Shown: positions 2,547-59,300 of the stretch, piece by piece
Numbering within the stretch: position 1 is the first letter of the stretch
Layout: every line of letters starts with the position of its first letter
Notes under the pieces: generated by a model
What the model was told of the DNA's origin: nothing
What the model saw: the letters and a program-made list of their open reading frames with translations, nothing else
Database searches by the model: none
Position numbers and translations under genes: made by a program
NCBI GenBank assembly: GCA_003342895.1
Contig: PTFA01000340.1
Span: forward strand, 698,979-762,978
Length of the DNA: 64,000 nucleotides
Source: Casuarius casuarius
Lineage: Eukaryota; Chordata; Aves; Casuariiformes; Casuariidae
Direction of reading: 5' to 3'

Positions 2547-2932
2547 TCATTTGGTGGCTGATTTGATCTTGTGGATGGCATACGGGCTGGACTCCTTGGG
2601 CATCCAGATCTCCTCCCCATCATGGCCCCGGTGCTCTGCTGCCCCCTCCATTGCCGCGGTCAGCTCAGGGCTGAAGATGTTGTCTGTTGCCCGGTAGGTG
2701 CGGGTGAGGCGGCGGAAGGAGGAGTCTGAGGAGCTGTCATCAGGAATGTCTTCATCCTGTTCATCCTGCAGCTTGGTCCTACTCAGCTCCGAGCTTCTCC
2801 CCGGCTCTGGGTCCTTAAAAGCCTCCCTCATGTCCTGGATGAAGGCCATCTTGGGGCTGATGATGCAGAGCAGGAGCATGAGGCCTCCTGAGACCCCACA
2901 CAGAAAATAGAGGCCAACTTTCTCTGGGATGC
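2547..2932 (-). CDS. EVA1C-like: EVA1C-like exon 7: transmembrane helix and cytoplasmic tail
   Basis: 386 nt, acceptor CAG at 2933-2935, stop TGA at 2547-2549. Encodes the membrane helix (VGLYFLCGVSGGLMLLL..), an acidic/serine stretch (DEQDEDIPDDSSSDSS) and the EVA1-type end block with EEIWM. The last residues (..IHKIKSATK) have no counterpart that I know in EVA1C. Confidence 0.9.
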
Positions 2933-5900: not shown

Positions 5901-8900
5901 GCGATGGTTAGCTGGGAAACAACACCAGAGTGTCCAGTTGTGGCTTAAATCATCCTGAGCCCCTCTGCCCTCGCTTAGTTCAGCCCCTCAGCCCAGCTGA
6001 GTGCTTGAGATCTGCCACTGGCAGAAATCAAGCTGCAAGGGTATGGCTGGGCAGCTGTGAGCCCCCGCTCCCCAGCTGAGCCCCTGGCAGAGTGGTGCCT
6101 GACCCCACCAGCCGGCTGGGTGAGAGTGGATGCACACAAGGCGCTGTGAAGGGGGCTGTGCCAGCCCCAGGGGCACGTGAGGCCCAGCAGGCAGCTCCTG
6201 CAGCAGAGCAGATAGGCAGGACCACGGCAGTGCGATTGCTCGCAATCCCAAGTCTGCCCTGCAAAACTTCTGGCACCATCTCCTCTTCCAGGAGGTAGTT
6301 AGTGGCACTCCTGTACACAACATATCCCACTGTGCTGCCCTGCCTGCTCCGAGTTTGCGCCACAGCCCAAATGCCCCAAATCTGTAATTGTTCCTGCTCC
6401 TCATTACTTTCCTCCAGGATTATACAGTGCCTAGCACAGAGCTTAGACCACGGCCGGATCAGGACTGCCAGATGTAGCAGCAGCTTAACTTTCCACCCAT
6501 TTCCGCTCAACAGAGGAGCTGAGGCCAGAGGTATTGGCTGGCCTCAGCTTTGCCTCACTGGTACCCCAGTGTCTAGGAAAGAGCCCACGCCAGTGCTCTA
6601 ACCCCACTCCGCCTCACCTGGCCGGCACTTGTAAGAAGCGACAAGGTACTTGTGTGTCCCAGGACATGGGTCTGGCCCAAAGACTTGGCTGTGAACTGAG
6701 AACTGGCACCATCGCTGGTCCTGGCACTCATCCAGCAGTTTCTGGAGAAGCAAATAAGACAGACGTGAATATGTGTGAAGAAGCTGTTCTCACCTGCTGT
6801 CCCTTGGTGGCATCACCGGCCTTAGAGAAATGGCCTCTCACCCCACAAAGGTGCCCTATGGCTGCTCACACCCCTCTCTCTGCTCGCTCCGTGGGTACCC
6901 CTGGTTCATATAGCAGCTTTAACAGAGGGGGTTCCTGGAAGAATTCCTCCCCTGTGTCCATGCAGACACATATGCTAGCACAGTACCTTGCAATGCCAGT
7001 GCAGACGATCACACTAGCACTGCTCCGTGCAACACCCACGCAGTCATGCACGCTAGTACAGCTCCCTGCAGTGCCCGTGCAGACATGCACACTAGCATGG
7101 CTCCCTGCAGCACCCGTGCAGACATGCACACTAGCATGGCCCCGTGCAATGCCTGTACCAGGCCACAAGATGGGGAAGAGGTTTCACACTGCAAGCTGCA
7201 CCCTGCCTCTGCCTGAAGGCTGTGTCCCGGCTGGTCTGGCAGGTTAAGGTGGCCTGCGGTGCCATGAGGTGCCTAGCTGCTGGTGGCCGAGCTCTGCCCA
7301 GCTGGCCCACAGCTGTCTTGCATACTGGGGCCTGAAGGCAATGCTGCTAAAATAACATGACATCCAAGCTGATCCTGTGGTTTCGGCAGTGCCATGTTGG
7401 CCGTGCTGCCACTGCCTGAGAGGCACAGTGGGTGGACTCTCATTTGGTGCCAGTTCAAACATGCCTTCCTGGGAAACCTTACAGGCTTGGGCTGTCACAG
7501 CCCAGACTTGTCACAGAGAGAGGAAGAGCAAGGCCACGAGGTATTCCCTATCCATGCCTCTCCGAGAAATTGCCCTCTGACTTGGGTCTCAAGGGTCCTA
7601 ATACCTGAGATAGTCCCAAAAGCCCATGGCTTTTTCTCTCCGCTTTTCCTGTCCCATCCCCTTCCTCTCTGCCACATTTAGAGCATAGCTTTGAGCTGAA
7701 GTGGATGGATGAATCTCTTCTTGGTCTTTAATGACTGCCAGACATTGCTGGCAGAAGTGAAATTTGAGGAGGAAATGCAATCAATCTCAGTCCCCCAAGT
7801 CTTCCCTAAATAGACCTAAGATGAGCCTCAAGAGGACCTTTGATCTCTGCTCTCCAGAATTCCTTCCTCTCTGAAAGATCTGCCTCTGGGCATCCTTCCC
7901 TACGGCTGTATGTTTGTATTCACCCCCATGGCATGAAGGGAGGTTGCCCCACATTTTACCCAGTGTGTGATTTCCCTGCTGTCCCTCATGTCTGTCAAGC
8001 TGCTGTGAGGGGCAGGACACTTAGCACTGCTGTAATGACCCTCTCTTCATTGGGCCCACCCATTTGGGAGCCAGAATAAAAAGCTGGGAGCAACCATGCA
8101 TAATCATTGCAGATCAGGGCTCACACTTTGTTTTACAGCAATGGGATGATCCTTCAGATCCTGAATGTCTGTCCAAAGACAGAGCACAGCCCTTCCTCTC
8201 AGGCAGGGAACAAGCCTGCCAGCTGCACTTTGCACTGGAAGGAAAGAGATGAGCGTGTGTGGGGACCAGCTGCAGCTGAGATGCAACAGACAGTAGCAAA
8301 CCCAGCCTGGGTGCTGCAGCCCTGCTGAGATTACTGACGACCTTTGTGAGTGGTCTTCTTCCATTCCATCTCCCTGAAAGCTGAGCCATTGAGTGAAGAA
8401 GAGCGTAGAGCGAAAGAGGTAAGTGCAGATCTCCATAGCAAGAGCACCTTGTCTCACCTGCTAGTTCTTGCTTCTTAGCCAAAGAAGGAGCAACTCCCCT
8501 TTGCTCCCTTCCAGCATGAAGTCCAGCCCCTTCCTTTCACTCACTGGTGAAGTGAGGAGCTGTGTAGCTTTGCACTGGGTGAGAGTGGAAGAGAACCACT
8601 CTCAGCATCAGCCCTCGCATCAGCCAAAGGCAGCAATTGCCACCAACATAGTGGCTAGAGCAATTTGATTTTGCATTGCAGTGGATGAGGAGGATTCACA
8701 TGGGACCTTTCTGTGTTTCCACTGGGACCCATCACGGATGGAGAGGATTCCTATACTGTGCAGCCAAAAACAGATCCTGACCACAGCCGTTCACAGTCCT
8801 GTCCTTCCAGTCTCCAGATGTACGTGCATGACCACATCCTCCAGCACATCACACCACATCAAGCCACTTTACACACAAGCTCTGAGTGCTCTGAACCAAA

Positions 8901-11900
8901 GTGTTTGCAGCGTGGTTTGTGGGACCTCTGGGCCGAGTTTGTTCCACACTAACACAGAAGTTCTGGCTCTGTCCTTGCAGAGCTCCTGGGGGCATGTGAG
9001 AAGCCATGAGGAGATTTGTGGCTGGAGCAGGGCCAGGCAGAAAGACCTTGTGAGCTAACAAAGTAAGGAATTGGCCTTTTTGAGCTCTCGTTCCTCTTTT
9101 CCAGCTTCATGTTCGCTTCTCACCACAGTGAGCTGTACATATCTCGTTTCGCTCCGGTAACCCCAGCCCTAGCAAAAGGCTGGAACAGGAATAGAAAAAT
9201 GGCACATGAAACTCAGCCCCAAGCCCCTTACCCTGTCTTTAAGGAACCCGCCTGTCCAGGCCTGGCATCTCTCCCTGGCTCCCACCCCGTGTCCCAGCTG
9301 CTATGAGTTCATCCAGAGCCCTGTGGCCAGCAGGGAAAAATGGGCAGGCTTAAAGGTGCAATGCTTTGTGTTGCAGCTGGGCTTGATTCCTCCTCATATT
9401 TGGGAGCAGGCTTGTGCCTGGACCCACTCCCTGGTTCCCTCAGAATGAGCCAGAAGCCATTTGGCATCTGTAACTCTGCATGTCTGGCTTCTCTTCCCAC
9501 CCCTCACGTCTCCCAAGGGGCTAGCTTGGCTCAAGCTGGTCTTTGCCCTTCCTGGTGTTTTAGCCCAGCAGACCTTCCCTGAGCCAACGAGTGCCTGGAG
9601 CTGGCAGTGCTCCCTGGGCACTGCCACTCTTGCCATGGGATGCTGGCCATGAATCCAAACACTTCTCTCTGGATACTGATGGAAGACCCTCTTGTCCTTT
9701 TCACCCAGTCCTTAGGTCATTAATCCCCCAACACCGTTCCTGATCATGAAAAACACAAAAACCTCCTTTGGGCCAGGTCCACTAATTTACTTCTTGGGAG
9801 ACAGACTCAGCAAAAGCAGGCAAGTTGCTTCCTGGCAGATAGTGCATGATGGAATTCAAGGTAGGATGTGGTGAGCGGAAGGGCTAGTGCAGGACTGTGT
9901 GGCTGGGAGGGCAAGTGGGATGCTAGGCTGACTTTCCCCTTCCTGCAGGTGTCTGCCTGCTGCTCCACAGTCCTCTGCATGTCCAGCACAGTTCACAGCA
10001 CTCACTTCAAGCACAGAGCCCAGCTGTCCCCATCCAGCCAAGCTGAAAGGACCTAGCCAAAAGCTGCCAGGCTCCTGCAGTCCTTGTGGGTCCATAGCCC
10101 TGAGATGCCCGCACAGACAGTCACTAGTACTCAAGCTGGCTGGAGAGGATGGAAGTGATGAGCAGCCTGCCATGAGGCAGGGACACCTGGCAGGGCCAGA
10201 GGAGGCTTTCCCCATGACTGAAACCTGGCCTTCCTTGTTCAGGAGGTGAGAGCCTGGTACTGGGGGCAGCATCCCCGGAGTACCCTGTGCATCTGGAGTG
10301 CTCTGTGCCTGAGGCAGGGAGCACTCCACTGCTCAGAACAGTGTCACCATCTGCATGGAGGTACTGAGGGTCACCATCTCCTCCTCAGACCATGTGCTGC
10401 AGAAGCATTGTAGACTCCCCACACAGGCACACTGTTACATTTCCCCTGGTTCCTAGCTCCCAGAGAGCCAAAGCCCATTCCAAAGCACTTGTGGAGTGAG
10501 TGAGACACAGCACCCTGCTCCACCACATCAGCATTGCACCAAGGTCAGGGGTGATCCCGAGCCTATGCTAACCATAGTGGATACACAAGTAGGACTGAGG
10601 CACAGTGCCCCAGCTGGGCAGTGCTCTGAGCCCAGTCACACTTCCCAACCCTGGGACCCCAGCCCCTGCACCACCTCTCACTCTGGGTTGAATCCCAGCT
10701 GCCAGGTGTTTCTCAGAGCCCACTTTGTCCTATAGGATTTCTCCAAAATCTAGCTCAGGATGCAGCAGTGTCTCTCCCAGACTTGTATCACAGGAACCCA
10801 CCACAGAAGGTCTTGTCCATCTTTGTATCCCAGAAGCTTTCTGGAAAAAGGACATTGCTGGGAGCTGCAGTGGTTAATCCTGACACCGATGGGGCCAGTG
10901 CCCATAGGAGAGAGTGCAGGCTGTAACATTTGCAGTGATGTGGCCCGAATGGGGAGCCCTGTGACCTGTGGAGATGTGCAGCACCATCCCATAAGGCTGC
11001 ACATCCTGGAAGGGTCGCCCTTACCTGGCGGGCTGTGGCAGACATGCATTCGGTGCTCTCCTCAGAGGCATTGCCAGGGCTGGGGCAGAGGTGCGGGCTG
11101 GGCACGCGGCGCCCATAGAACGCACCAAGGATGCTGACAGTGGTCTTGTGAGGGCACATGATGATCAGCTGCTCCCCATCACAGGTATGGATAGTGTGGT
11201 TCTTCAGCACCTTGCGCAGGTAGCCTGGCAGGGGACAACACAGGGAATGTTGGCCGGAGCCAGGAATGAGATACCCAGGGCCACGGAGATGGCAGTGCCT
11301 AAGTTCCCAGCAGCTGATGGCAAAGGAGGGTGTCCTGGACAGAGGCACTTACTGGACAAACACAGGCAGGGCATGGTTGCGGCAGAGAAGGGGGGCTTGC
11401 AGCAAGGCCTATATCCAGCATTACTGCCAGACATCTGGAAAGCAATATAGACCAACTGAGCTGAGTAGCAAACAGAAGCAAAAGTTGGAGGCAGGAAGAC
11501 AGATCAGAAAAACAGACATGAAAGAATCACATATGGAATCGTAAAAGGTTTTAAGAAAGTCATAATCTTGTTACAGAGACACATAGAGGAGAGAGCAGGG
11601 ATGAACCAGGATCCACCAGAGTCCAATTTATTCTGCAGTGCTAAAACCTCTCCACCGTGCAATGCTGAGCCATGAACTGGAGGGGGAGGAAGGCTTCAGC
11701 AGCTGCTTCATGACTTGTCATGCTGTTCCTGTTGCAAGGACAGGAAACCTGGGGAGGAGCAGGGTGAGAAGGGCAGGAATCAGCCATCCTGAGAGCAGCA
11801 GCTGCTGCTGTGAGACAGAGCGCAGGGATGGCTAATGGAGTTCAAGGCCAGGGAGGACTACTCAGAAGGAGAATTTAGGGTGGGGGCAGCAAGTGGCTGG

Positions 11901-21162: not shown

Positions 21163-21219
21163 ATGGAGAATCAGCAGCACAGTCCCAAAAAGGAGCCTGA
21201 GATCGAGCTTTTTGTGAAG
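21163..21219 (+). CDS. CLIC2: CLIC2 exon 1
   Basis: 57 nt, 19 codons, ATG to ..EPEIELFVK, donor GTGAGT at 21220. The first ten residues differ from human, then PEIELFVK is identical. Separated from exon 2 by a 6.9-kb intron. Confidence 0.9.
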
Positions 21220-24200
21220 GTGAGTTCCCCGAGGCGCGTTTGCTCATTAGCTGTTGCCTATGGGCTCATCCCAGGCGGGCGGGCTGTAGCCTGTCTTTTC
21301 CCAAGGCGTCATTAATTGCCAGCTGATTTCAGGCGGTGGAAGTTTGTGAGAGTCTTCCAGAATCTGGAGAAGAGTGCCAAACTGAGGGTTACTTGCCATG
21401 AAAAGGGGCTAATCTGCCTGAATTCACCTGCCTGTTCCCAGAGCCTGGGTACACGGGATGCCCGGAGCCTGGCAGCAAGGGTGCCAAGGACACTTTGGCT
21501 TGGGCAGAGGCAGGGTGTTGTGCCCACTCCGCTCCCCCCGGGGAGCCCGGCGGCATCCAGCCCTGGATGCTGTGTTAGCTTTCGTGGTGGTCACCTCCCT
21601 CTGGGGAACCGTGCTGCTGGCAGTGGTCGTAATGAAGGAGCGGGGCAGGCGCACGTGTGCCTCTTGAAACCCAGATAAGACAAGTCTCAGCCCAGGAAAA
21701 GCAAGCAGGAGCGCTGAAATGAAACGGAGCAGCTACTTCAGTTTTTCCTTTGAGTGGGAGTTGTGAAACAGACCCTGGAAGGCTTTGGGAGCCTGTGCGA
21801 GTGCCCACGTGTGGGCGGATGGGGAGGGATGGGACAGCTTCTTAGGTCAGCCCTAGGGGATTCTTCGCTGGAAATGTTTTTTCCTCTGTTAAGCAATTTT
21901 TCAAATACTTCCTCTGGAACATTTCAACACTCCTGTTCCAAACATTCGCAGCGAACATGCAGGGAATAGAAAGAGAGGAGCCAGGGCTGACAGCCGAACT
22001 CCGCACAAGCGTGTATGCGAGTGGCAGTGGCAGAGAGGCCCCGGGACAGGACGTGCATGGCCCCAGGCACGCTGTCGTGTTGCAAGCGAGTGGGGGAAGA
22101 GCGATGCCACTGTGTGCCACCATGTCACAGCGTGAAGAGCAGTTCTCCAAGCAGCTTTTTAACTTCTGGGCAGCAAACCACTGTGAGCTGTGCAGCCTTC
22201 GCTCCTCTGCTACCGAGACAGCTCAGTGTCTGAAAAGACCACGACATCTGCCCAAAAGAGCTGGTTTCCCACTGGTACAGGCGCCTGCCATCCCCCACCA
22301 GTGCTGGGTGCAGGTCCGTGTTGGCACTGCACCCTAGGGCCTTGCTCACAGAGGGATGTAGCTGGAAATAAATGTTTGTCAGAGAGGATTATCTGTGGCT
22401 TAGCAGAAGAAAGTCTCTCTCATCCCCTTGCTGAAGCTGTGGCCACAAGGATAGTTGCCAGACGCTGAGCTTTGCAAGATTGAATCTAGGCAAGTGTATT
22501 TTCTTGGTGAATATAATGCAGGTCTTAAATTCTCTCCTTACAGACTACTTTCCCCCCCAGGATGTCTGGGGCAAAAAGGAAAATGATACACAAAGTTACT
22601 GTAGTGGCTGCAGAAGGCTTAAGGGGGTTTCATGGGGAAGAGAAACAGAAAACAAAGCAGCAGCTTAGCAGGACTTCCCCTAAATCTTAATTTAGCACTG
22701 AAAACCCCCTCTGACAAGTTAACAGACAAATTGATGCCATGTCTCATTCTCCTACTCTTCAGGACACAGATTTACTGAAATCATGTCAGATCCAGAAGGG
22801 GTTGAGCAAACAGGCACCCCACCGTGCTATGAGGTGTCAGGGGCACCCCACACGTCTCCGAGGCTGCAACCTGTCCTCTGAGACGCCACTGCTGGTGTCC
22901 ATGGTGACAGCCATAAATCACGGCGTTCCTGGGATGGGTGCTGCCGGCGAGCCAGAGCTCATGTGAACACTCTGGCTTCAAGCATGCACCAGCGCGCAAC
23001 ACCTTCCTGGGACCTGGCAGAGCTTTCAGCAAATGCTAAATTAACTTGGCAGCTCCCCACATTGCCTTTGGATCTGGGGGTGGCAGTTCCCAAGAGCCTA
23101 TTAATAATTTCTCATACTCCCCCCCTCGTCATCTTCAAATGCTGGGAAGGGCCCGGGGTATTGCTTGCTGGCGTAATCACTGCCCGGCTGCTGTGGCAGG
23201 CCTTGCGCGGGCACGTCCCACTGGAGAAAGCCCCGCACTGGTGAAGTCAGTCCCACGCATGCTTTCCCCAGGGAGCATGATCCAGCCATCCCACGTGGCG
23301 GCAGTCCTTGGGGTGGCAGGCAGGCGAGCATCTCCCTGCCTGGCGCCATCGGGAGGAGGCTCTGTCCCTTATGCTTAGTCCCGTGAGGAGTTTAGCCAAC
23401 CCCAAGACTGCTTTCCAGTTTTCTTGGTAGCCATAGGAATCGTGGGCAGGCCATGGAGGACTGGGTGGGTGTTGAGTGGATCTAGACAGCGTCAGCAGTG
23501 CTCCAGACACACTCATCGCCTCCCTCCTCCCACCATGTTTCATGCTGTTTCACCAAGGAAGGAAACATGGGGGCTTCTAAGCAACTTTGGGTGTTTAACA
23601 TCTTGTGCTATGATGCCTGAAAAGATGCAGAGAGTTATCGCTAAAAGCGTGTACCTCCCTGGAAAAACTGTGCTGGCCCAAGCCTCCCCCTCTGTCCCAC
23701 ACATCTGCCCATCTCTAGCCCTCTGGTAGCCTTTACTGCAGAGACCAGCGCAGACGCCACAAGACCAAAATCCCCCATCCCAGGCCAGCTACACCTCCAC
23801 AGCCAGGCATTCAGCAGCCCTCAGTGGCATCACCTCTGTAGCCGGCTGTGGATCCAGAGGCGTATGCCCAGCTGCATCCCATAAAGCAGCCCCACATTGG
23901 CTTGCCCAGGGGGAGGGGGTTTGGAAACCCAGGAGAGAGCTGGTTTTTTTCCATCATTGTGCTGTGATGGTTCTGCACCTCCATCCTCCCAGGGAAGGAC
24001 TGGAGGGCTTGAAAGGACACCAGTGCGGAAAGTCAGCCTGGGATTGCTGCAGGCTCTGCCTTCCCCCAGCCTGGGGTGCCAGGCTGCAGCAGGGGAAGAG
24101 GCGCGCTCTGCAGAAGGAAGCAGAGAGCAGAGACTTCCCCTCCTTGCAGCTTGGGCTTTGCTTGGAAAGGAAAGCACATGGCTGCAAGTTTCTCCAAACC

Positions 24201-27200
24201 TCTTTCCTCTGAGTTCCCTAGTTCCTGAAGGCGGCTGGGTGAGCAGTATACTCCAGGGCCATGGCACGGTGTCACTGCTCTCTGGGCTTGCCTGGGCCAA
24301 GCCTTTGCCTCTGGGCAGTGCCCAAGCACTGGTGGAACTGCCCCCATTTCCCTCCGATAAAGATTTGGCTCTGAGCATCCTAGAATGAGCCTGGCTTAAT
24401 TTTTTTTTGCAGGGGCTATCCTGGTTTTCCTTTCCTTCTGGTATAAAATCACCCACCTTTCTGTTTTTAAAAGACAAGAGGGAAAAACACCCTGAGCTGT
24501 TCAGAGGTTGGAGTTACAAGGCAATTGTGGAGAGGCCTGAGATGGGCCAGCACAGCCAGCCTGGGTCGGAGCAGTGCCATCCCTGCTGAGGGACACCCAG
24601 TCCGCTCCTGCTGCCCTGTCCACCACTGCCACTGCCCCATGTGCCTTGCACAACTCCACCTGACACAGGGCCACTCGTTGTGTTGGCTCAGCACAGCAGC
24701 TCTGATGCGGTTGACAAGACGACTTGCAATTAAGCCCCCTCACTCCCCAGCCTCGTACCGACGGAGGAAAGTGAGGTGGAGCACAACCAGCCAGCTCCCC
24801 TCTTCTGCCACCCTGTGCGGCTCTGCCCCCAGCAAGGGACGTCTCAGGGGAACAAGAAGAAAGTGTGAAATTCATGGTCCATTTAGCAGTCAGTCCTCAT
24901 GTAGGGCAGCCACAAAAGCACCTTCTGAACTGTTGGTCTTGGAGATGCTTCAAAAGACAGTGCTAGTTTTGACTTGTAACTGCCATGGATGATGGACTGG
25001 GGAAGGGCAGTAGAGACACCCATTGGTATGAGAGCAGGTCAGCCCTTGTGGCTATTTTCTGATTATCTCCCCTCCACTCCCCTGCCGGACATTTGATACA
25101 CCATTTTATCCGTTACAAATCAATTCTCATTTATCAGAAACTGACATAGGAAGCGGATCAGTGATTTATGACCTTTGAGCCAAACTGGCTCCTGGGCAGA
25201 AACCACCTAGGAACAACTCTGGTGGACTCACAGCTCCTGCTGCACAGCCCAGTGCCCGGGCTTGGTGGCAAGAGGGCCCACGCTTTCAGAGAGCTTTTCT
25301 GAGGGCTCTGGGGTGCTGCATTCAGGGCAAGTGATGCGAGGAAGAGGCAGCAAACATCCATAGGCCCTGGGGCACACTGGGGTCAGGGCTCTAAGCGCTG
25401 TCAGTGACCCTGGTATGCCGTTCAGACTGCATCTTCATAGATTTTCTTTTTCTAATTAATAATCAGCAAGTAGCATCAACAGGCCAAATTCCCTTCTGTG
25501 ATGGGTCTTAAAAGACAGGAGGAAAAGGGCACAGGTGGATTTGCTGAATGCATACCCTCAGGCTGGGCTTTACCTGCTGGTCTAACTCGCACATACCCCA
25601 TTCCTCCCCTTCTTCCTAGCTCCATTTCTATAGACACTGTTTGCTCTGGTGACAGCCAGCCCCAATGCCATACGTGTGCAGAGGAGGGATGGCTCTTCAG
25701 CCCCTGCAGGACCCTCTCTACACCAGTGAAAACATGCTGATGCTCAGGACTCTCACATGAGACCATCACTTCAGGGTTTATCCGATAGGAAATTAGAGCA
25801 AAGGAACATACTGTTTTTTTTCTCGTGAGCACGATTTCATGACAAATGAGAATGAAAAATAGTCGTTAAAAAGCATTTGCATCATTTTGAAAGGATGGCT
25901 GCTTTTGGCCTAGTTGAAAAGCAAACCACAACCTCCACCTGACCACTTTGAGTGTTAGTGTTTTCTTGTTTTGATTTAGTCTACTGTCTTCTTTAGAGTG
26001 AGTTTTAGGCCAGTGTAGCTCTCCCGGAGGAGCTGAGTGTTCTAGTGTCTAAAGGTTTCTAGGGATGTTATTCTTGCCTGCAGCTACTTGACTTCTTTCA
26101 ATTCCACTAGATCCTCCAAAATCTTATCATCTTCCTGCTTAGCCTCTGAACTTCTGCTTTCCTGCCACTTCTCTGGACAGTCAGAAATCAAAGGTTATCA
26201 AGAAGCCATGGGCCATAAGCCATTCCCTCTGCAGTTCATTTGCTGCATGTCCCATGCCAGGAGATGTACCAAACACATGCCACTCTGTGGGAACAGCATC
26301 CGTCCACAAAGGAGCTGAGTGACCTGTGCTGATCCTCTCTGCAGTACTGGAGCTGCCACACAAGCTGGAGGGCTACTGTGCAGATGCAGCTGGGAAATGA
26401 GTTTATTCTCTTAAACAAACTACGTTTCCTGTGAGCCATTTTTCCTTTCGTCTCATGGTGCAGTTCCCTGCTCTGAGCAGCATCTGAGCCAGTCTTCATG
26501 TGCTTAGGAGGACCTGCCTGGTTCCTCTAGAGCAATTTCCTCATAAGGAGCTTCAGTGCTTTTTGCAAAGACTATTGATATTTTCAGCTACTACTTAGCA
26601 AGGAAATTGGCCTGCAAATGGCTTTGCTCCATCTACCTCTGCTTTCCCTTGGGATTACTGAATTGGCATCAGATGGCCAAAACCCTGAGGGAACCCTAGT
26701 GAGACTCAGACAGGTTGTCCAAGTTTCCTGCTCTCCAGTGTCCTCACTGCTGTTTGACTTCATCCTGGAATTTAAAATACCCTGCAGAAAAACAGGTCAC
26801 AGAACAGCCTCCTGAGATAATGTGCTTGGATTGCTGAAACCTCATGGCCCTATTGACACAGAGTGGCAGAAAGGCACTGTGTGCAGAAGATTGAAACTTC
26901 AGAAAGGGACATGTGGCTCCCTTTCCCATTGATATTAGGTGGGATGGTGAGTGCAGATTCACCTCCACATGGGCAAGGGTGGACTTCTGACTAGGAGCTG
27001 GTGCAGCTGCTGACACTTTGCCAATCTAGTAGCAGGGCAAGAGCACAGGTCCCACCTGGTAGATGAAGCTGGCAGCCATGCAGTTCCCAGGCCATGCTCC
27101 GGCAGCCCTTCTCCTCACAGAGGTGAAGGAAGCTGTTTGTGCGGCTCTTGGCCATCCTCAGCCTGGAGAATTTATGCTTGGGCTCTTTAAACACAAAAGA

Positions 27201-30200
27201 AAAAGAGTTGGACGCTAACAGCACACAAAAACAAACCACTCTTCCTGGCAAGCATGAGCACATTTCCCTTTGTGTCCACCCTCTTGAATCTGGACTTCCA
27301 GCCAAAGAGACCCTCCCTTCCTCTCCCATCTATTATCAATCACCCTCCACCTCCTTCCCCCAGCATCCTCCTCCTCCTCCCTGCTTTATCTCACATCACC
27401 GGGAAGGATCCGACCTCGGCCATCCTGAGGACAGTCTCCAGCACTTTCCAGTAGCAGCAGGACCATGGCTCAAGAAGGAAGGCTGCTACAGCTGACGCCT
27501 CCCAACACAACTGTCAGCTGCAGCTCCAAAACAGGGCCCGCCTGGGATCAATTTGCAGGGCAGAACTACTTTAATGGGCTACCTGAAGGGCACACTGACT
27601 TGGGTTAGGGCTTAGGCCATGCTCTCCGGATGCCTTCCTCCTGAGCTTGGCTCCAGCAGTTCTCCAACTCCAAACAGCCCAGCTTTCTGGGCTGGGGCTT
27701 TGCAAAGGCAGAGCCTAGCCAAGAGGGTTTGGCCCCTTTGCCCTGGTGTTCTGCATTCACGAACCTGGCACATGCGTTCAGGACACAGCAGCCAGGCCCA
27801 GAGGCATGGAATGGTTAGATGGAAGGTAGGTAAGTAGACAGACAGATAGATAAATATAGACCCTGTAATGAAATTTCTGCTGTCCCAAGACCCTGTGCCA
27901 GCACCCCAAATCTCAAAGTCTGCTTAAGTCTTGTCTGAAAACAAAAGGGGGAGGAGAGGTCCTGCAGATCTGGATGGAAGGCTGTGGGGTGCTGCAGTGG
28001 TATAGAGCTGCCTTCTCTGAGGGACTGTTCAGTGCACTCCTGGGGGTGCCCTAGGTATGGGGCCTGGATGTTGGGTTAAATCCCTGTTTTCTCTGCTTTC
28101 CCTACAGGCTGGTCTGGATGGAGAAAACATTGGAAATTGCCCCTTTTGTCAGCGCCTCTTCATGGTGCTGTGGCTCAAAGGAGTCAAGTTCAATGTGACC
28201 ACAGTGGACATGACCAGGTGAGACAACACCACAACACAGCTTTGTGCCACCAGAACCTGTATGGTGAGACAGGCCATGGCTCAGCTCTCCTCTGTCAGTG
28301 CTTTCCTCCCTCCCAAAAGCACCGCTGCCAGCATGGGCTGCCCTGGCCCTGCACCTTGCCCTGCACTGGAGCGTCACTGTAAGAGGGACAGCAGTCACAA
28401 TTCCTGCCTCACGTTCCCCTGCCTGCGCAATGACCGCACTGCACAGATGCATGGGATGGGCCACCACAGAGCTCCATCCACGTGCAAGTGCACACAAGGA
28501 CAACAGCTACCTGCCCTGCTGGATTTGCATGCAAGAGCATGTAGACGGGGATAAGCCTGGCCCTGTGCCCTCCCACGTGCCCATCCAGGTCTTGTTCATT
28601 GCTCCAGGGAAACTGGCTGGTGCAGAAAGTGTGCAGGCAATGAGTCCACTTATTTTCTTTGTTCCAGGAAACCTGAAGAGCTAAAAGATTTAGCACCAGG
28701 CACCAACCCACCCTTCTTGCTGTTCAACAAGGAGCTGAAAACAGACTTCATTAAGATTGAGGAGTTCCTGGAGCAGACCCTTGGCCCACCCACGTAATTA
28801 TAACTTATGCCTTCCCCCTTTCAGGGCCTGGAAGGCACTTAGTAGCATTGAGTAGTGTTTGGCAGATGGGAAAAACAAGGCAGGGTGGTGGGAGGCGCCT
28901 GGAAACCAGCACGGGGGTGCCAGCTCTTGGCCCGTCATGCTGACGTCTGGCCACACTCCTGCACCCTTGTGGGACCTTGCCCTGCAGGGCCAGGGCTTGC
29001 AATGCTGAGGAGCCGTGTCTTCCCTGCGGTAGGTTAGGCTGCAAGGAAGCAGGGCAGCCTGGGAGAGAAAACAATGGGAGGAAGTGTATTGTCTGGTGCC
29101 TCCATGCAGGCAGAAGGGGAAGGAGCAGGGGAGTGGGGGGATGTTGCTTGCAGGTGTGCAGGCTAAGAGCCCCAGGGAGGTCGTGCTGTTGGTTTTGCAG
29201 CCATCAACAGCAGCTGGTGTCAAAGGGTAGATGGGGATGTGAGATCCCTTTCGCCTGCTTTTATCTGCTGCACTCAGCTTAGTCAAAGAAAACACCTCTG
29301 CTTGAATGTGGGAGTGCAGCTGGCCCACAGGGTTGCTGCGGAGGGAATAGTCTCTCCGAGCTGAAGAGAAGAGCTGCAGCCCTGCTGCTGAGTGTAAAAT
29401 GGAGCTTTCAGATACATCTTTAACTCAGTTCCTCAGACATGTCTGCCCTTGTGGTGCACTCTGGGACACCTCAGCAACCAAAAACCCTTCCCTGAGGAAG
29501 TCATGTGAGTTTCTGGCTTCCCCAGGCCCCTCTTGTTCTGGCATGCATCCTCCAGGCTGAGTCAGAGCTGCTGTGAGCGACCCCAGTTTGCAAGCAGAAG
29601 CTTGCTCTGGGGCTCTCTAACCCTGACCTGGAGTTACTGCAGTATGATTTTCCCATAACAAACACCCAAGAATAGGTTACGGCTCCCAGGGAGGCAACTG
29701 CAATCACTTAAAGCTTCACAATACACCCACATCTGGCTGAGCTGCACCTGCAACCACCAGTACCAATGCCAGGAACCACAGTTCTGGAGATGATGCAGCT
29801 GATTATTGTTAAGGACCATGCATCTCTGAGTCTGTCCTTGTCTGTGCTGACAGAAGCATCTCTTTAAAGGTATCCACACTTGAGCCCCAAATACAAGGAG
29901 TCCTTCGATGTTGGTAGTGACATCTTTGCCAAGTTCTCAGCATACATCAAGAACCCACGCAAGGAAGCAAATATCAGTAAGAAATGTCGGCTGGGGGTGC
30001 AGGGTCCCCTACGTCTGAGCAGCTCGTGGTTGTGGCTGGGGGGAGGCATGCTGCTGAGGCAGGCTCCCAGCGTACACCAACCCTCAGAGGAGGGGCCTCG
30101 TGGGGAAGAGGGCTGTCCATCTACCTTGCTGGGGGAGCAGCACTTTTGTTGGAAAGCATCTTGTTTTGCTGAGAGGTAAATCCTGTTACCAGGCTGGGGT

Positions 30201-31335
30201 TCCTGCTGCCTCGGGTGTGTTGTCTTCCCCAGTAAAGCCACCCTGGCAAGCGGAAGAGCAGGCAGGAAGGATGGAGGCAGTCCTGCTCTTCCCTCTGCAC
30301 TCCTTGGGGCCAACGACCCTGGCAAATGCAGATCTGTGTGCAGACACTAGCCAGAAGCCAGGACCCCTGGCAGCCTGCCCTGCTGCGGAAAGCACATCCT
30401 GGAGGTCAAGTCCCAGAGGGGAGCAAGAGGCGATGCTGCTGTGCTGGTCCCAGCTTTTGGCTCCAGTTAGCAGAGCAGAGGCCCATCAGGTCTAATAATC
30501 TGGAACAGGACCAGAGCTTAGATGCATGTCACCCTACAGCCCTGCTCCCAGAGTTTGCATTGTGCATTCTCTGCTGCCTGGCAGAAGAGGCCCTGGCAAG
30601 GGTCCAGCTCTGTGTACCACTGGCTTGGCCCAGAGGGCTTCATGCCCGTACATGAAGAGGCTCAGCAACTTGGTCAGAAGGCCTGGTAAAGTTCTGAGCC
30701 TGGAGCTGTGCTGGGAGCTTAGGGGAACCACTGGAACTGGGTGTTGCAGGCTGATTGAGTATTTTCCTGCCCACCCAGATTTTGAGAAGGCTCTGCTGCG
30801 GGAGTTTCACCGCCTGGATCTCTACCTGAACACCCCTCTCCCTGAGGAGATTGACCAGGACAGCATGGAGGATGTCACTGTCTCCAAGAGAAAATTCCTG
30901 GATGGAGACCACCTGACACTAGCTGACTGCAACCTCCTGCCCAAACTACACATCATCAAGGTAATAGCACTGGCTGCGCTCCCAGGACCGAAAGAGAGGG
31001 CACCCACCCCAGGAGGTGGTGATGGGACAGGGTAAAGGGCCTGGGGGTGGTGATGTGAGCAGGGGGCCTGGGGCCCCCCTTTGGCTCCCCCAAGATGGGA
31101 AGCAAATCTTTCTCAAGTCTCAGCAGTCTCAGCCTCCCTCTCTCCCCTCTGTTACCTGCCCCCTCCACTCTAGATCGCAGCCAAGAAGTACCGTGACTTT
31201 GAGATACCAGCAGACATGACGGGTGTCTGGCGCTACCTGCACAATGCCTATGCCTGCGATGAGTTCAGCCATACATGCCCAGCGGATGAAGAGATAGAGC
31301 GCACCTATGCCAGTGTCGCCAAGAAGATGACCTAG
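21163..31335 (+). CDS. CLIC2: CLIC2, chloride intracellular channel protein 2, complete 6-exon gene
   Basis: Exons 21163-21219, 28108-28217, 28668-28793, 29870-29976, 30779-30960, 31174-31335 join in phase to 744 nt = 247 aa, the same length as human CLIC2 and with the CLIC-family exon sizes (110, 126, 107, 182). CLIC proteins are GST-omega-fold proteins that exist soluble and can insert in membranes; CLIC2 is known to modulate ryanodine receptors. Seen here: short N-terminus, ELFVK strand, the glutaredoxin-like motif NCPFC with Cys30 and Cys33 (CLIC2 has this CxxC, most CLICs have CxxS), [30 protein letters not shown], and the C-terminal ..[11 protein letters not shown].. region. Differences from the human protein as I remember it: Thr98 for Arg in PPRYPHL, and Cys222 for Arg in YAREEF. 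ATG has a strong Kozak context. It is transcribed away from EVA1C-like and towards the urotensin-family gene. Confidence 0.95.
21220..28107 (+). other. CLIC2 intron 1 (6.9 kb)
   Basis: Largest intron of the gene. No repeat family recognised with confidence. An antisense exon-like segment lies at 27056-27184. Confidence 0.7.
27056..27184 (-). other. Exon-like open segment antisense in CLIC2 intron 1
   Basis: On the minus strand a 129-nt stretch is flanked by a pyrimidine-rich acceptor (..TTTAAAG) and a donor (CAG|GTGGGA). Its one open frame is phase 1 at both ends and includes the block [20 protein letters not shown]. No family recognised; it may be a stray exon, an old pseudogene or chance. 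Confidence 0.2.
28108..28217 (+). CDS. CLIC2: CLIC2 exon 2: CxxC active-site region
   Basis: 110 nt after acceptor CTACAG, donor GTGAGA at 28218. Encodes [18 protein letters not shown].. with the redox CxxC motif and the putative membrane-inserting helix that follows it. Confidence 0.95.
28668..28793 (+). CDS. CLIC2: CLIC2 exon 3
   Basis: 126 nt, acceptor TTCCAG, donor GTAATT at 28794. Encodes [16 protein letters not shown].. to ..LEQTLGPP, the rest of the thioredoxin-like domain. Confidence 0.95.
29870..29976 (+). CDS. CLIC2: CLIC2 exon 4
   Basis: 107 nt, acceptor TTTAAAG, donor GTAAGA at 29977. Encodes [15 protein letters not shown].., [10 protein letters not shown] and ..KEANI; the split codon with exon 3 makes Thr98. 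Confidence 0.95.
30779..30960 (+). CDS. CLIC2: CLIC2 exon 5
   Basis: 182 nt, acceptor CACCCAG, donor GTAATA at 30961. Encodes [10 protein letters not shown].. the acidic loop [11 protein letters not shown] and [19 protein letters not shown] of the helical C-terminal domain. Confidence 0.96.
31174..31335 (+). CDS. CLIC2: CLIC2 exon 6, C-terminus
   Basis: 162 nt, acceptor CTCTAG, stop TAG at 31333-31335. Encodes [19 protein letters not shown].. to ..SVAKKMT. Contains the unusual Cys222 codon TGC. Confidence 0.95.
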
Positions 31336-33352: not shown

Positions 33353-33358
33353 TTTATT
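33353..33358 (-). terminator. Polyadenylation signal of the urotensin-related gene
   Basis: AATAAA on the minus strand, about 460 bases downstream of the stop codon at 33815-33817. Together with the CLIC2 signal it leaves under 400 bases between two convergent transcripts. Confidence 0.55.
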
Positions 33359-33814: not shown

Positions 33815-33846
33815 TCATTTGGTGACACAGTATTTCCAGAAGCAAG
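33815..33846 (-). CDS. UTS2B-like: URP exon 4: mature peptide ACFWKYCVTK
   Basis: 32 nt, acceptor TTCCAG then CTTGCTTCTGGAAATACTG.., stop TGA at 33815-33817. The first two bases complete an alanine codon with the G ending exon 3. Too short to be found by ORF length. Confidence 0.94.
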
Positions 33847-36800
33847 CTGGAAGGGAAAGGAAAAGGCACCTTTGCGAGGGGCTGCAGCACTGCTTAGCTA
33901 CAGCAGAAAAGTTTAAGTGAAGAGAGATGTCCATCGCTTTTCCTGGACTCCTGTTCAGCCCTGCAGTCAGTTCTAAGAGCACAGCCCAGGAGCTGGGTGG
34001 CTCCGCCTTAGGCCACACAACGAGTACCCTCCACCCCAGGCCATGGGCACCCTCATCCCCTGAGATGGGCACCCTCCACCACGCACCTGGCCCCCCAGTC
34101 ACTGTGTACCCTTTGCAGATCAGCTATGCAGAGCACTTTCTGGTTTGGCAAGATGACAGCAGCCCTCTGTAGCATGGTGACCTCGTGTGGCTGGACCCCA
34201 GGACCCACTGGGAGCCAGCACTCACCTCTCTTGTTGGGCTGTTGAGGGGCCTGGTTTGCCTGGGCAAATCCCTGGTTCTGGAGCTCACTCACTGCCACTG
34301 TCTTCTGGAGAACTGCCTTGAGGTCTTCCACCTGCCATGGCAGAGGGTCACACCAGCCCCATCACACGTGTGCAGTGCACACCCAGTGAAACCAGCCCCC
34401 CAACCCCCTCTCCTCCCTGTCAGACTGAGGAGGGAAGCAGTGTGGGCACCAACACTGGCCTCTGAGAAAAGACAGCCTCCAATTTGCAGGTCTATAGGGA
34501 CAGGGTTTTCTGGGACCTTGTGGGGGGCTGGCTCAGAGGACTCGCCTGCCCAGCAGTGTACCCCTTGACCACTCTCCCCAAAGCCAGGGCAGCATCCCCT
34601 ACTCACCAGGTGGTCAGGAACATCTTCCTGGAGAGTGTTTTTATTTCCTGAAAAAAACAGATATGTATGAAAAGCCATGAGCAGGCAGGGGCTGTGAGTC
34701 CGGCATGATGGACAGGAGCCAAGGAAACATGTCTCAGGAGAAGGAGAGAGGAAGAGTGGACATGGCACCAGCATCTACTTCTCTCCATGCTCCCTGGGGC
34801 CACCTATCCTGCAGCACTCCTTCATCCTGCATGTAGGCCTCCTCCTGCTTGAGAGCATCCCAGTGACTATCTCTGTCCACACATGCCCCCACTCTAGCCC
34901 TCTCTCCTGGTCCAGCTGGTCCTGAGTCCCAGGACTCAGCTTGGCCCTGACCCACTTTCCAGACATGTCTCATTCCTTCCCCCAGTGCAGGCAGAGCTGA
35001 ATTGAGGTTCCTGGATGGCTGGAGCCCTGCCAAAGGCTTGCTGTCAGTCACAAAGCTAACTGAACTATCCACCAGGTTAAAATCTGTCAGCATAAGGTTT
35101 GGATTGAAGGAGACAGTGACAAGGACAAAGCAGCTCCTTTGGGGTGTGCCTGCTCCTTGGGCAGCGGGGCTGAGAGCCCGAACACAGCATTGACTATAAT
35201 TCCCAAGAGTTAAAGGAAGGTTGTTCGAGGAAGACCGGGAATCTTTGTCTCCTCATCTGGCAAAGGAATGCTGGCCTAGGCTGGGAGTCAAAATGCTAGC
35301 CTGTGAGACAGCTGGGAGCAAGGCTCCTTCTCAGCACGGGAGAATGAATTACTCTGTGTTGCCTTCAGCATGACCACAATGGGCGAGTGAGGAAGGGTCA
35401 CCATTAGCTGCTGGGCTCCCCTTATCACAAAAGAGCATTCTGAAGGCACCTCAACCTTGGAGGATGGCTGGCAGCATTCCCCAGTGGCCTTGCTTAGCCA
35501 GGCTTCTGCACTGGCGGGGCTGGGAAGGTTAAATCCAGACTCTGTTTATCCCAACAGCATGTCAGATAAACGCAAGCACAAATCCTGCCCAGCTGAGTTT
35601 GTCTCACAGCCTGTCTGTCTTGCTTGGAGGAAAGGAGAATCTAAGTCACCACAGGAAGAAATGTTAGGTGCATGTTGAAAACTAAGGCAGCAAGCCCCCT
35701 GTTGTCTATGTTTAATTAGAAACCGAGTGTGTCTGGTGCTTTCCAACATCTTCCCCTTTGACCCGTTGCTCTTCCAGTGTCTGCTGAGCCCATGCACAAC
35801 CCCACAGGAGGCTCCCACTGATCTCTGCAGGATCAGGGGCTCTGGGAACTGAGGAATCCCAAGAACTTGGCTGCAGACATATTTTCCTTGCCTCAGACAT
35901 ACAGCCAAGTTACTGCAGTTTTGGAAGTCCCCATGAGTCAGCCAAGTGACATGAAGAGCCCATGTGCATGCTCGTTTCCCAGAAATGCTGGGCAACATGC
36001 CTCAGCTGGGGCCTGCTTGTGTGAGCTATGCAAGGTTCCACTGCTGCGACCTCATGGCAGGATCAGAGCATGAGTACAAGCAGTTACCAGTTTCTGCTGC
36101 CTTGCAGAAGTCCCTGAGATTTTGGGGGTAAACTGACGCTTTCTTTTAGAGCTCAGGCTCCCTACCAAAATGACCTCTTCTCCCACATCAGGAAGCCCAC
36201 TGTGTCTAAACAAGTGTTTACTCACTGGTCAGCACTAGCACATACAGACCAGGGCCATAGATACCCCTTTTGAAAAGAGTTCCCCCAGGTGTACCTTTGG
36301 ATGCAAATGGTGTCATCAGCCCCCAGGTCTAGCAGACATGGGCTCTGCTACCTGTAGTCCCCTTGGGGCACTGGCGTGCATTAAGTGACCACATAGTGGG
36401 GCACCAAGCAGTGGTAGAGCCTCCGGCACACTGTGCAGGCAGCCAGCATTGGGATGCCAGGTCTCACAGTGACTGTGAACAGAGCTTGCCCAATCCCAAA
36501 GGTTACTTAGCGTTCACACCTTGCTCTGCACATGAGCCGTGATTCCCTCACCTCCACAGAGGGAGTCAGAAGGATAGCCAGTCTACAGGGTTGTTTTGTC
36601 TGTACACCCCAGACTGGCTAACTCCCAGGGCAATTCCATCTCTCATCCCAGAATACCTGAAAACATCACCCAAACTCTGCTGTCTGCAGATCACAACAGC
36701 CAAAGCAGTCCCTCAGGAACAGGCTAGTCTTCTTTTGCTCAACCTGATCACCCTAGGGATCTACTTACTTAACTCTACTGGATGTACAATGCTCCAAACA

Positions 36801-37117
36801 ATACTGGGGAAACCCCTTCCCATGCCAGAAGACCGTTCTGCCCAAAGAGAAAAGGGGGAAATTAAACTACTGTGCATGTCTGGAGCAGCCAAACCCACAT
36901 GAAACATTAGATATGGGCCAAATGATTTGAGCCAGCAGTCAGTGCTGCACAGTGGTGCACAAGGAAAAAAAAAATCTCACCTGGGTTACATGCACAAACA
37001 GGCAAGTTAGTTGCCCTTACCTTGGACACCATTGCTTTCAGGGTAGACAGGATAAGCATTAATGCAGCAAGCCTCCAATAGTACTGCCAAGGTGACTACC
37101 AACATCTGGGAATGCAT
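33815..37117 (-). CDS. UTS2B-like: Urotensin II-related peptide (URP) precursor, complete 4-exon gene
   Basis: Exons in transcript order: 37021-37117, 34607-34647, 34226-34331, 33815-33846 (minus). They join in phase to 276 nt = 91 aa + stop. Residues 1-21 form a signal peptide (MHSQMLVVTLAVLLEACC..), followed by a spacer, then ..QQPNKR, then the last ten residues ACFWKYCVTK and TGA. Lys-Arg directly before the peptide is a prohormone-convertase site; the CFWKYC ring closed by two cysteines defines the urotensin II family, which signals through the GPCR UTS2R. ACFWKYCV is the mammalian URP sequence; the extra Thr-Lys end is like zebrafish URP1 (..VTN). The mature peptide is alone in a 32-nt last exon with its alanine codon split across the intron. 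A TATA-like box lies ~60 bases upstream. Family assignment is firm; whether it is URP1 or URP needs synteny or a tree. It is not the UII gene of birds, whose peptide has a different N-terminal extension. Confidence 0.93.
34226..34331 (-). CDS. UTS2B-like: URP exon 3: propeptide and dibasic cleavage site
   Basis: 106 nt, acceptor CAG at 34332-34334, donor GTGAGT at 34220-34225. Starts VEDLKAVLQKTVAVSELQNQ and ends QQPNKR plus one base. An amphipathic helix-like stretch precedes a Gln/Asn/Pro-rich spacer. Confidence 0.9.
34607..34647 (-). CDS. UTS2B-like: URP exon 2: propeptide spacer
   Basis: 41 nt, acceptor TTTTTTTCAG just above 34647, donor GTGAGT at 34601-34606. Encodes NKNTLQEDVPDHL. Called from splice sites and from the only phase that links exons 1 and 3. 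Confidence 0.82.
37021..37117 (-). CDS. UTS2B-like: URP exon 1: signal peptide
   Basis: 97 nt, ATG at 37115-37117, donor GTAAGG at 37015-37020. The frame is open further upstream to an ATG at 37196-37198, but MHSQ.. is preferred: it puts the hydrophobic core at the N-terminus, has A at -3, and lies just downstream of a TATA-like element. Confidence 0.85.
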
Positions 37118-37176: not shown

Positions 37177-37184
37177 CTTTTATG
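37177..37184 (-). promoter_or_regulatory. TATA-like box of the urotensin-related gene
   Basis: CATAAAAG on the minus strand, 60 bases upstream of the chosen ATG; initiation would be expected about 30 bases downstream, giving a 5' leader of only about 30-35 bases. Motif and spacing only. Confidence 0.45.
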
Positions 37185-56300: not shown

Positions 56301-59300
56301 TCAGTTCCTTGTGACAACCCCGTATGAGACAGGTTAGGGGAAGGCTATGCTGTTTGGACAGGAGACTGCTCTAGCCAGCCTGTGATAGAGAAGAGACGTG
56401 TGCTCACAGCTTGCTTCCCTACATACGTATCACCTCACGAACACAGCAGTCAGGGTAAAGACAGTGCTGTAGGGGCTGTTCCTGCCTTAACCAGCCTGCA
56501 CCAGCTTTGACTTGCCTGAACAAAAATGCCCTCACACAGCACGTCTCAGATCCATGACAGGGACAAATGGGGGATGCTTTTAAGAGGGAAGCCTGGAAGG
56601 GCATCCGCTGTTCTGCTCGATTTCAACGCACTCTCCAGAGACTCAGATTATCACAACACCTTGTTCTCAACATTTCCTGAGGAGCTGGTGCTGGCAGCCG
56701 GGGTCAAGGACAGCTGCCCTAACATGCACATGAGACCTGGTCCTTGCCTACATGCTTCCAGTCCAGAGCCTAAGTGGGTGAGAGCAAGCCCTAGATGGCT
56801 GTGCAAGCTTGGAAGAGCAGAAGTAAGAGGGCAGATATAAAGCTCTTCTCTTCCTGCTCGTTCATCTCCAGTTCTAGGCACTGGCAGTTCTCGGACTTCT
56901 GAGCTGACATTTGTGTGGGGTGGAGAGAAGAGGTCACTGCAGAATTTAATCCTTCTCTCAGGATCCCTCATCCTGGTGGGACAGCTTGCTGGCCCTCTTG
57001 TCCCTCACCCAACCTGCAAAGCCCGTCAAAACGGCTCTGTGATGCAGACTGGCAACCTGGATCTGAAGCTAGGCCTGGATCCACAGCTCTTTCATCCCTT
57101 TGGGCACCATGAAGACCACCCTACCATAAGGGAAACCTACACTGGATCAAAGAGAAGGGACCCTTCCCAGAGGTGCCTAGGGACAGAGGCAACAGCACAA
57201 GCTGCAGCTAGAGAAATTCTGATTGATCATATATTCCCCCCCGCCCCAAAGATGGTCAAACACTGGAACAGGGACTCAGGGGTGCAGGAATCTGCATCCT
57301 TGGAGATAGTCTCTGCTTGACTGGACAAGACTTTGAGCAGCCTGCTCTAACTAAACCTGCTTTGAGCAAATGAAGGTCCTTCCTTCATTTCCAGTCCCAT
57401 AGAAATTCTGGGGACTCCCAGAGGTCTCATCCTATTGCCTCTCTCCCCTTGTTCTTCACATAGTCCTAGTATAATGCAGTCCTTTTCCAGCAGTTATGCT
57501 CATGTCCCTTTGCTCTGATCAAGCTTCTCTACATTTTTCCCATCAGTATCAACCTCTCCAATGGCCCCATCCCCCCCATCAGCTCCCTGTCCCAGGTCCT
57601 TACTGTCTCTGTATGGCTGTAGTTCACTAGAACAGACCCACTCGGACAGCTCGTCTCCGTCCACCGCTCTCACTCTTGCCCAGTAGATACCATAGATATC
57701 TTCAAAATATAGCTCACAAGTCCAGGATGAGCTGGTGCTGTTCCCCCAACAGGAATCTGCCTTGGTCCAGTGAGAAGTTCTACCCATGGAAAGAATGCAG
57801 TGAGCAGGTGCCAAAAAGGGGAAAAACTACTGCCTACCCATTGCGAATCTGACAAAGCAGAGTGGGTCAGATAACACGGATAATGCAGCCCAGGACACTG
57901 TTGGCAAATAAGAGCATTGCTCTCGGGTTGAGGGAGGTGATTATTTGGCACTGATGAGACCTCATCTGGAGTGCTGTGAGCAGTTCCAGCTCCCCAGGAC
58001 AAGACAGGCATGGACATATTGGAGTGAGTCCAGTGAAGGGCCACAAAGATGATTAAAGGATTGGAGCATCTCTCATATGAGCAGAGGCTCAGAGAGCTTG
58101 GACTCTTTAGCCTAGAGAGGAGAAGGCTCAGGGGGATCGTATCAATGTGTATGGATATCTGATGGGAGGGCGTCAAGAGAATGGGGCCAGTCTCTTCTCA
58201 GTGGTGTCGAGTGACAGGATAAGAGGCAATGGGTACAAACTGAAACACAGGAAATTCCATTCAAACATAAGGGGGGGGAAAAAAACCCTTTTTTTTACTG
58301 TGAAGGTGGTCAAAAAAGGGAACAGGTTGCCTAGGCAGGTTGTGGAGTCTCTATCCTTGGGGATATTCAAAACCTGACTAGACATAATCCTGAGCAACCT
58401 GGTTTAAATGGCCCTGCTTGAGCAGAGGACTTGAGGTAGATGACATCCAGAGGTCCCTTCTAATCTCGACTATTCTGTTATTCTATGAAATTTACTTCAG
58501 GAAAACAGTCCTCTGGCTAAAAAAGGGCCCCCAACTTCCTCCTCACACAACCCTCTGCTACCTCTCAGGCCTCAGAGAGGAATCAAGCATAAGTATCAGA
58601 TGACAGGTGACCAGCCAGTAAGCACATCTGGGCAGTGAGAGGGGCATAGGAAGCCCCCGGCGGGCAGGCCAGGGCTTGGAGGCAGCAGGGACGAAAACAC
58701 CCCCACCTCCTTCCTCCCCAGTTCCATACATACCGTCTTTTCCTCCACTCCACCTGGTACCTGGCACTGCTGGGCGAGCGAGGGTCCGGCTCCCACGTCA
58801 GGGAAGCGTGGAAGTTTTTTGCCACTAGCGTCACATTCTGTGGAGGAAACGGCATGCCTGGGGGAGCAGGGGAAAGGGGTGTAAGGGCAAAGGAAGGCAA
58901 CGTTTCTCTGCTCCAGGATGGCCCACAGAGAGATGCACGCTCACGCCTCTGCCGCCTAAGTGGGATGTGTTGGTATCCAAGCAGGGTGCTGTTGCCTGGC
59001 TCTTTCATCCTTCACCATTCACCGCTGTCTCGCATTAACCCAGCTTGTGGCTACACTGTGCAGATCTCACTGCTTTGTGCAGGCGCTATGGGCCTGTGCA
59101 CACCCGACAACCCTGCAACCTCAGTCCGCACAGGTGAATACCAACTCCTTAGTGGTCTCCAGCAAGGGCTGGCTGGAAGCACAGCTCTCAGTATCTGTGT
59201 TTTGGGAATCTCTCACGTGACCCAACACACCCTGGAGTATCCTATTTGCAGTCCCTTGAAAGGCACTGACAGGTCCTCCAGCAGCATGTCCCACAGGCCT

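Follow-up and report, generated by a model that had tools for sequence, protein, structure and literature searches.

The urotensin II family includes urp1 and urp2 of fishes. According to passages of one study (PMC8354755), both have so far been described only in ray-finned fishes, with Xenopus having urp2 and not urp1, and other tetrapods had not previously been investigated for either. Brief statements elsewhere hold that URP1 and URP2 are believed to have been lost in tetrapods (PMC4364556), and that tetrapods have UII and URP only (PMC4406059); the peptide table of the latter gives fish URP1 as ACFWKYCVTN and mammalian URP as ACFWKYCV. Zebra finch is listed with one UTS2B and a single paralogue UTS2, and chicken with the receptors UTS2R1, 2, 3 and 5, in parts of a further paper (PMC6349858). 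In zebrafish, Urp1 and Urp2 control the shape of the body axis and spine, and the reach of this role into amniotes is posed as a question in the sections concerned (PMC8354755, PMC9836392). The text on receptors in the first of these describes Utr4, the counterpart of zebrafish Uts2r3, as a receptor that Anolis has and chicken lacks (PMC8354755); a bird URP1, if it signals, would therefore use other urotensin receptors. Among the records listed by our literature search, which left supplements, preprints and most subscription papers outside its range, there was no report of urp1 in a tetrapod and no paper linking CLIC2 with urotensin (one unrelated paper was returned).

Here we describe a gene in a 64-kb stretch of DNA (the whole of it referred to as the window) that is very probably a bird urp1. 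Its reading frame is open from the start codon as far as the CFWKYC ring, and the predicted product is a secreted precursor of a cyclic ACFWKYCVTK peptide. Sequence comparisons support its being the orthologue of fish urp1 and not the ordinary UTS2B. What is new is where urp1 occurs, tempered by the fact that some lizard database entries already bear the urp1 name.

Structure of the gene and its relatives

Four exons on the minus strand (37021-37117, 34607-34647, 34226-34331 and 33815-33846), separated by introns that are all GT-AG (3/3), join into 276 nt, that is 91 codons and a stop. The product, MHSQMLVV...QQPNKRACFWKYCVTK*, has the C-terminus NKR-ACFWKYCVTK-stop, exactly as the earlier note had assembled it. 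The two family features named there, the CFWKYC ring and the dibasic site, are both present, with the ring C-terminal and behind NKR (NKR-A-CFWKYC-VTK-stop). The codon pattern for CFWKYC occurs once in the window, and with one mismatch allowed it was matched in none of 100 dinucleotide shuffles. Coding exon 1 (37021..37117) contains the start codon, a presumed signal peptide (MHSQMLVVTLAVLLEACCINA) and the segment YPVYPESNGVQ; the N-terminus is hydrophobic by eye and aligns with those of relatives, and 17 to 20 of 32 residues in the exon are common with the aligned parrot, eagle, alligator and turtle proteins. The 41-nt exon counted second in the earlier note (34607..34647), which we number exon 3, has an acceptor scoring 12.5 and a donor scoring 10.4 (splice-site scores throughout come from approximate matrices). 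Exon 4 (34226..34331; 106 nt) has the dibasic NKR at its end and 25 of 35 residues common to the parrot Guaruba. The last exon (33815..33846), which is indeed 32 nt as previously proposed, lies behind an acceptor scoring 12.6 and encodes (A)CFWKYCVTK and the stop; placement of the mature peptide in the last exon is a urotensin II family feature, and the frog and zebrafish urp2 genes likewise carry it there in the gene structures described in PMC8354755. String matches alone define a TATA-like CATAAAA (37178..37184, minus strand) 61 bases 5' of the start codon and an AATAAA polyadenylation signal (33353..33358, minus strand) downstream of the stop.

A protein search with the 91-aa product gave five matches (the parrot Guaruba, a gecko, a python, Podarcis and a fish), the best being the parrot protein (E 1.0e-24), followed by squamate proteins (E 1.2e-23 to 1.5e-20), with a Caranx protein at E 3.9e-9; the Podarcis match carries the name urotensin-related peptide 1. 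A profile built from these five had 254 protein matches with E values of 0.1 or below, and we examined the best 120. Of the 120, 103 have fish names and are mostly labelled urotensin-related peptide 1, 14 are sauropsid (seven squamate species, turtle twice, alligator, three parrot rows and eagle), one is a newt and two are others; mammal names are absent from these best 120 of 254. Named fish URP1 proteins match the profile at E about 1e-47, and the similarity of the window precursor to proteins bearing the name urotensin-related peptide 1 extends over its full length. The Pfam Urotensin_II model (PF02083) scores 16.6 bits on the window precursor against a cut-off of 18.6, and it appears unsuited to the URP1 branch, because the 120 relatives listed, named fish URP1 included, are without a Pfam label. 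A PDB search with the precursor returned nothing beyond a chance match (an integron cassette protein, E 0.3), and an Rfam search at gathering thresholds gave no match.

The predicted hormone is equal to fish ACFWKYCVTN at nine of ten residues and has Lys as its last. An intact ring is present in 112 of the relatives listed, in the form ACFWKYCVTN in 92, TCFWKYCVTN in nine, with the ring directly after KR in four, with VTK in four and with VTS in three. The VTK ending is found in two parrot species, the newt and a relative on a 3073-base contig (P0064). Fish URP1 itself varies, and the three VTS rows are flatfishes, the nine starting with Thr and the four with the ring immediately behind Lys-Arg being further variants. 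P0064 is a bird-like URP1 with CLWKYC replacing CFWKYC and with exons 2 to 5 read in one frame, and perhaps derives from a spliced transcript. The window precursor is predicted to be secreted and likely cut after Lys-Arg, which would yield cyclic ACFWKYCVTK; a carboxypeptidase might remove the last lysine.

Seven of the 120 relatives listed, among them turtle (two rows), alligator and eagle, are without the hormone exon, in keeping with the earlier remark that gene finders easily miss an exon of 32 nt. A short last exon can thus conceal a hormone from annotation, and the turtle, alligator and eagle models ending without it are one reason that the gene stayed unnamed.

Exon 2 and the length of the precursor

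The earlier note called the gene complete, and although the open four-exon frame stands, this was too strong: a 159-nt ancestral exon with damaged splice sites had been omitted. We dropped the four exons as the whole gene because the relatives have an extra exon that matches 34940-35098. This segment (exon 2; 34940..35098, minus strand, phase 1 at both ends) matches a parrot protein by tblastn at E 2.3e-14, and the precursors of the relatives are about 145 aa, compared with 91 aa in the window without exon 2 and 144 aa with it. The corresponding block is present in all 14 sauropsid rows, in full in 12, with Paroedura and one Caretta model starting late. The window copy has 53 codons and neither a stop nor a frameshift.

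The borders of exon 2 were placed by protein alignment, and there is neither a GT donor nor an AG acceptor at the borders so placed in the window. The acceptor is CAA, not CAG, and the donor reads CAAG followed by CTGAGT, one base off the consensus GTGAGT. In the relatives, whose splice sites are deduced from proteins and not DNA, the intron-reading parrot sequence FNPA-LMPTDF and the FNPD-LMP of P0064 indicate CCAG before exon 2, where the window has CCAA. Exon 2 has the same phase at both ends, so skipping preserves the frame and gives the 91-aa product. As both of its splice sites appear to be mutated and the frame survives its omission, exon 2 is likely skipped, which would shorten the precursor in frame from 144 to 91 residues with the signal peptide, cleavage site and hormone retained.

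The main rival to skipping, in our judgement rather unlikely, is that exon 2 of this same urp1 gene is spliced in through cryptic in-frame sites, giving a precursor of 135 residues and not 91. An acceptor at 35083 and a donor at 34952 preserve the frame, and the 132-nt piece between them (35083-34952) is open. The acceptor falls in the Thr-Asp codons ACA-GAT, and the late-starting Paroedura model begins exon 2 at the same DFN; the late start of the one Caretta model and the undecayed sequence of exon 2 also fit. However, these sites are weak, scoring 3.3 and 3.6 respectively on the approximate matrices, compared with 7.2 to 12.6 for acceptors and 10.4 to 11.5 for donors of the other urp1 exons, and a stronger donor nearby (34956, score 6.4) would break the frame.

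Another explanation is that urp1 is decaying in this lineage, with the splice sites of exon 2 lost first and the remaining frame an unexpressed relic. Two splice-site changes within one exon, the replacement of a conserved Trp of exon 4 by Gln (W108Q) and the CLWKYC of the bird-like P0064 could be read this way. We consider it improbable, as the 91 codons and the 53 of exon 2 are free of stops and frameshifts, consensus splice sites are intact on the other exons, and the hormone exon is unchanged relative to parrots. Nor do the conserved sites have an excess of changes: of 58 positions on which 80 percent or more of the other sauropsids agree, the window has a different residue at 6, within the range of the others (3 of 58 in Podarcis to 14 of 47 in Caretta), and within exon 2 it departs at 4 of 21, no worse than other species. 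At the level of protein comparison we see no sign of long decay, and skipping of exon 2 in an otherwise maintained urp1 is the reading that we prefer.

Linkage to CLIC2 and the question of paralogy

As proposed in the earlier note, urp1 adjoins CLIC2, which has six exons on the plus strand (21163..31335), with its stop at 31335; the two genes are tail to tail, with stop codons ~2.5 kb apart. The best PDB match of the encoded protein is CLIC2 (E 1.4e-133, vs E 4.8e-112 for CLIC6). The CLIC2 tree unites the window with a goose, a chicken, a songbird, a hawk and two owls (support 100/98). These six birds, all neognaths, form a group that excludes the window (97/89), so the window is probably from a palaeognath bird; this position among birds agrees with the amniote origin that had been supposed. 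We scored linkage in other genomes as identical contig size for the urp1 and CLIC2 rows in species present in both listings. Both genes are on one contig in five of the eight comparable species: Paroedura (49561206 bases), Pleurodeles (1103321725), Chaetodon (31367202), Eucyclogobius (39979434) and Knipowitschia (45340364). CLIC2 is thus a neighbour of urp1 in three teleosts, answering the synteny check proposed for fish urp1, and also in a salamander and a gecko. The Pleurodeles locus tags are two apart (NDU88_007496 and NDU88_007498); this newt, P. waltl, has a URP1 ending in VTK (P0103), though urp1 is reported absent in frogs. The other three species (Cyprinodon tularosa, Scophthalmus maximus and Alligator) did not have matching contigs, perhaps due to different assemblies or short scaffolds.

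Two other genes in the window bear on the history of this region. One is an EVA1C-like gene (2601..11258, minus strand), for which Pfam reports SUEL lectin and FAM176 domains (E 5.1e-10 and 3.4e-9); it matches human EVA1C by tblastn at 27 to 60 percent identity in pieces and may be an EVA1C paralogue belonging to this block. A second is an IFNLR1-like class II cytokine receptor fragment of two exons (57620..58840, minus strand; Pfam Tissue_fac E 2.8e-8), with a weak tblastn match (E 0.004) to human IFNLR1. Human 21q22 holds EVA1C, interferon receptors and CLIC6. In Xenopus, urp2 adjoins rcan1, clic6 and gart according to the description of that locus in PMC8354755. Because of these two window genes, the 21q22 grouping and the Xenopus urp2 neighbours, we infer that the urp1 block looks like the genome-duplication partner of the urp2 block. 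Elsewhere in the window there is a reverse transcriptase fragment (Pfam RVT_1; 40799-41722, plus strand), presumably of a CR1 retroelement, and a tandem repeat with a 39-base unit in about 4.6 copies (6974-7153).

Against six fish URP1 rows the window precursor scores 53 to 64 bits, compared with 19 bits against human UTS2B and no match to human UTS2. In the URP1 tree the window groups with eagle and parrots at 100/100 and falls outside eagle plus parrots, in agreement with a palaeognath origin; the tree alone cannot settle the paralogue question because human UTS2 and UTS2B have very long branches and the outgroup was not recovered as one group. OSTN linkage is a mark of the UTS2B locus. The OSTN domain is not among the Pfam matches of the 215 of 440 window ORFs (each of at least 66 aa) that were scanned, with 21.2-37.4 kb covered only by the assembled CLIC2 and urp1 proteins. 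The neighbourhood is that of CLIC2 and, as far as these ORFs show, not that of the ordinary UTS2B. That the gene is nevertheless UTS2B (URP) or urp2, moved or misread, is extremely improbable, even though the mammalian URP ACFWKYCV in the table of PMC4406059 has the same first eight residues and the Varanus relative is labelled Urotensin-2B by its source, since the ring is followed by two residues in URP1 fashion, the neighbours are CLIC2 and the EVA1C-like gene, and urp2, as described in parts of PMC8354755, ends in SQN (fish) or IQNK (frogs) near rcan1, clic6 and gart, unlike the VTK and CLIC2 here. Three lines of evidence bear out the URP1-like identity first suggested: alignment with named URP1 proteins from end to end, the two extra C-terminal residues, as in fish URP1, and the linkage to CLIC2 elsewhere.

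Comparison with known systems

In fish, the peptide is released from spinal neurons contacting cerebrospinal fluid and acts on urotensin II receptors, and by analogy the bird peptide may have the same source and targets. A broader account, plausible though tentative, is that urp1 survived the transition to land. It would have persisted next to CLIC2 in birds, crocodilians, turtles, squamates and salamanders, overlooked through its 32-nt hormone exon; in this palaeognath lineage the loss of a whole exon, with the frame preserved, would have produced the shortest URP1 precursor among those compared, which would still supply a spine-straightening signal to the urotensin receptors that birds kept. 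The papers cited here treat urp1 as fish-only, so a CLIC2-linked open urp1 in birds, squamates, a crocodilian, a turtle and a newt would revise the account of when urp1 was lost. A bird urp1 also makes the question of spine shape in amniotes testable in chick-like embryos.

Among described genes, UTS2B/URP of mammals and birds has the same first eight peptide residues; it differs in having nothing after ACFWKYCV, where the window adds Thr-Lys, and in a propeptide that is barely related (the 19 bits above). Xenopus urp2 is also of the urotensin II family and beside a CLIC paralogue, clic6, but as portrayed in sections of PMC8354755 it has IQNK after the ring, five exons, and rcan1 and gart as neighbours. 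Urp1 of teleosts and gar has a presumed signal peptide, an EDLK...-type propeptide end, the NKR site and the ACFWKYCVT core in common with the window gene, and in three teleosts the same linkage to CLIC2. The differences are the last residue, Asn in place of Lys, a middle of the propeptide that is hardly alignable (6 to 9 of 46 exon 2 residues), and the probable skipping of exon 2 in the window. Squamate URP1 (Podarcis lilfordi, Gekko, Liasis, Varanus and Phrynosoma) aligns across the whole precursor including exon 2, although the peptide ends in VTN and the gene models use exon 2. The bird entries of Guaruba, Lathamus and Aquila, all labelled uncharacterized, also differ in using exon 2, and the eagle model is without the hormone exon; they are nonetheless the nearest to the window gene in the URP1 tree, and the parrot peptides end in the same ACFWKYCVTK.
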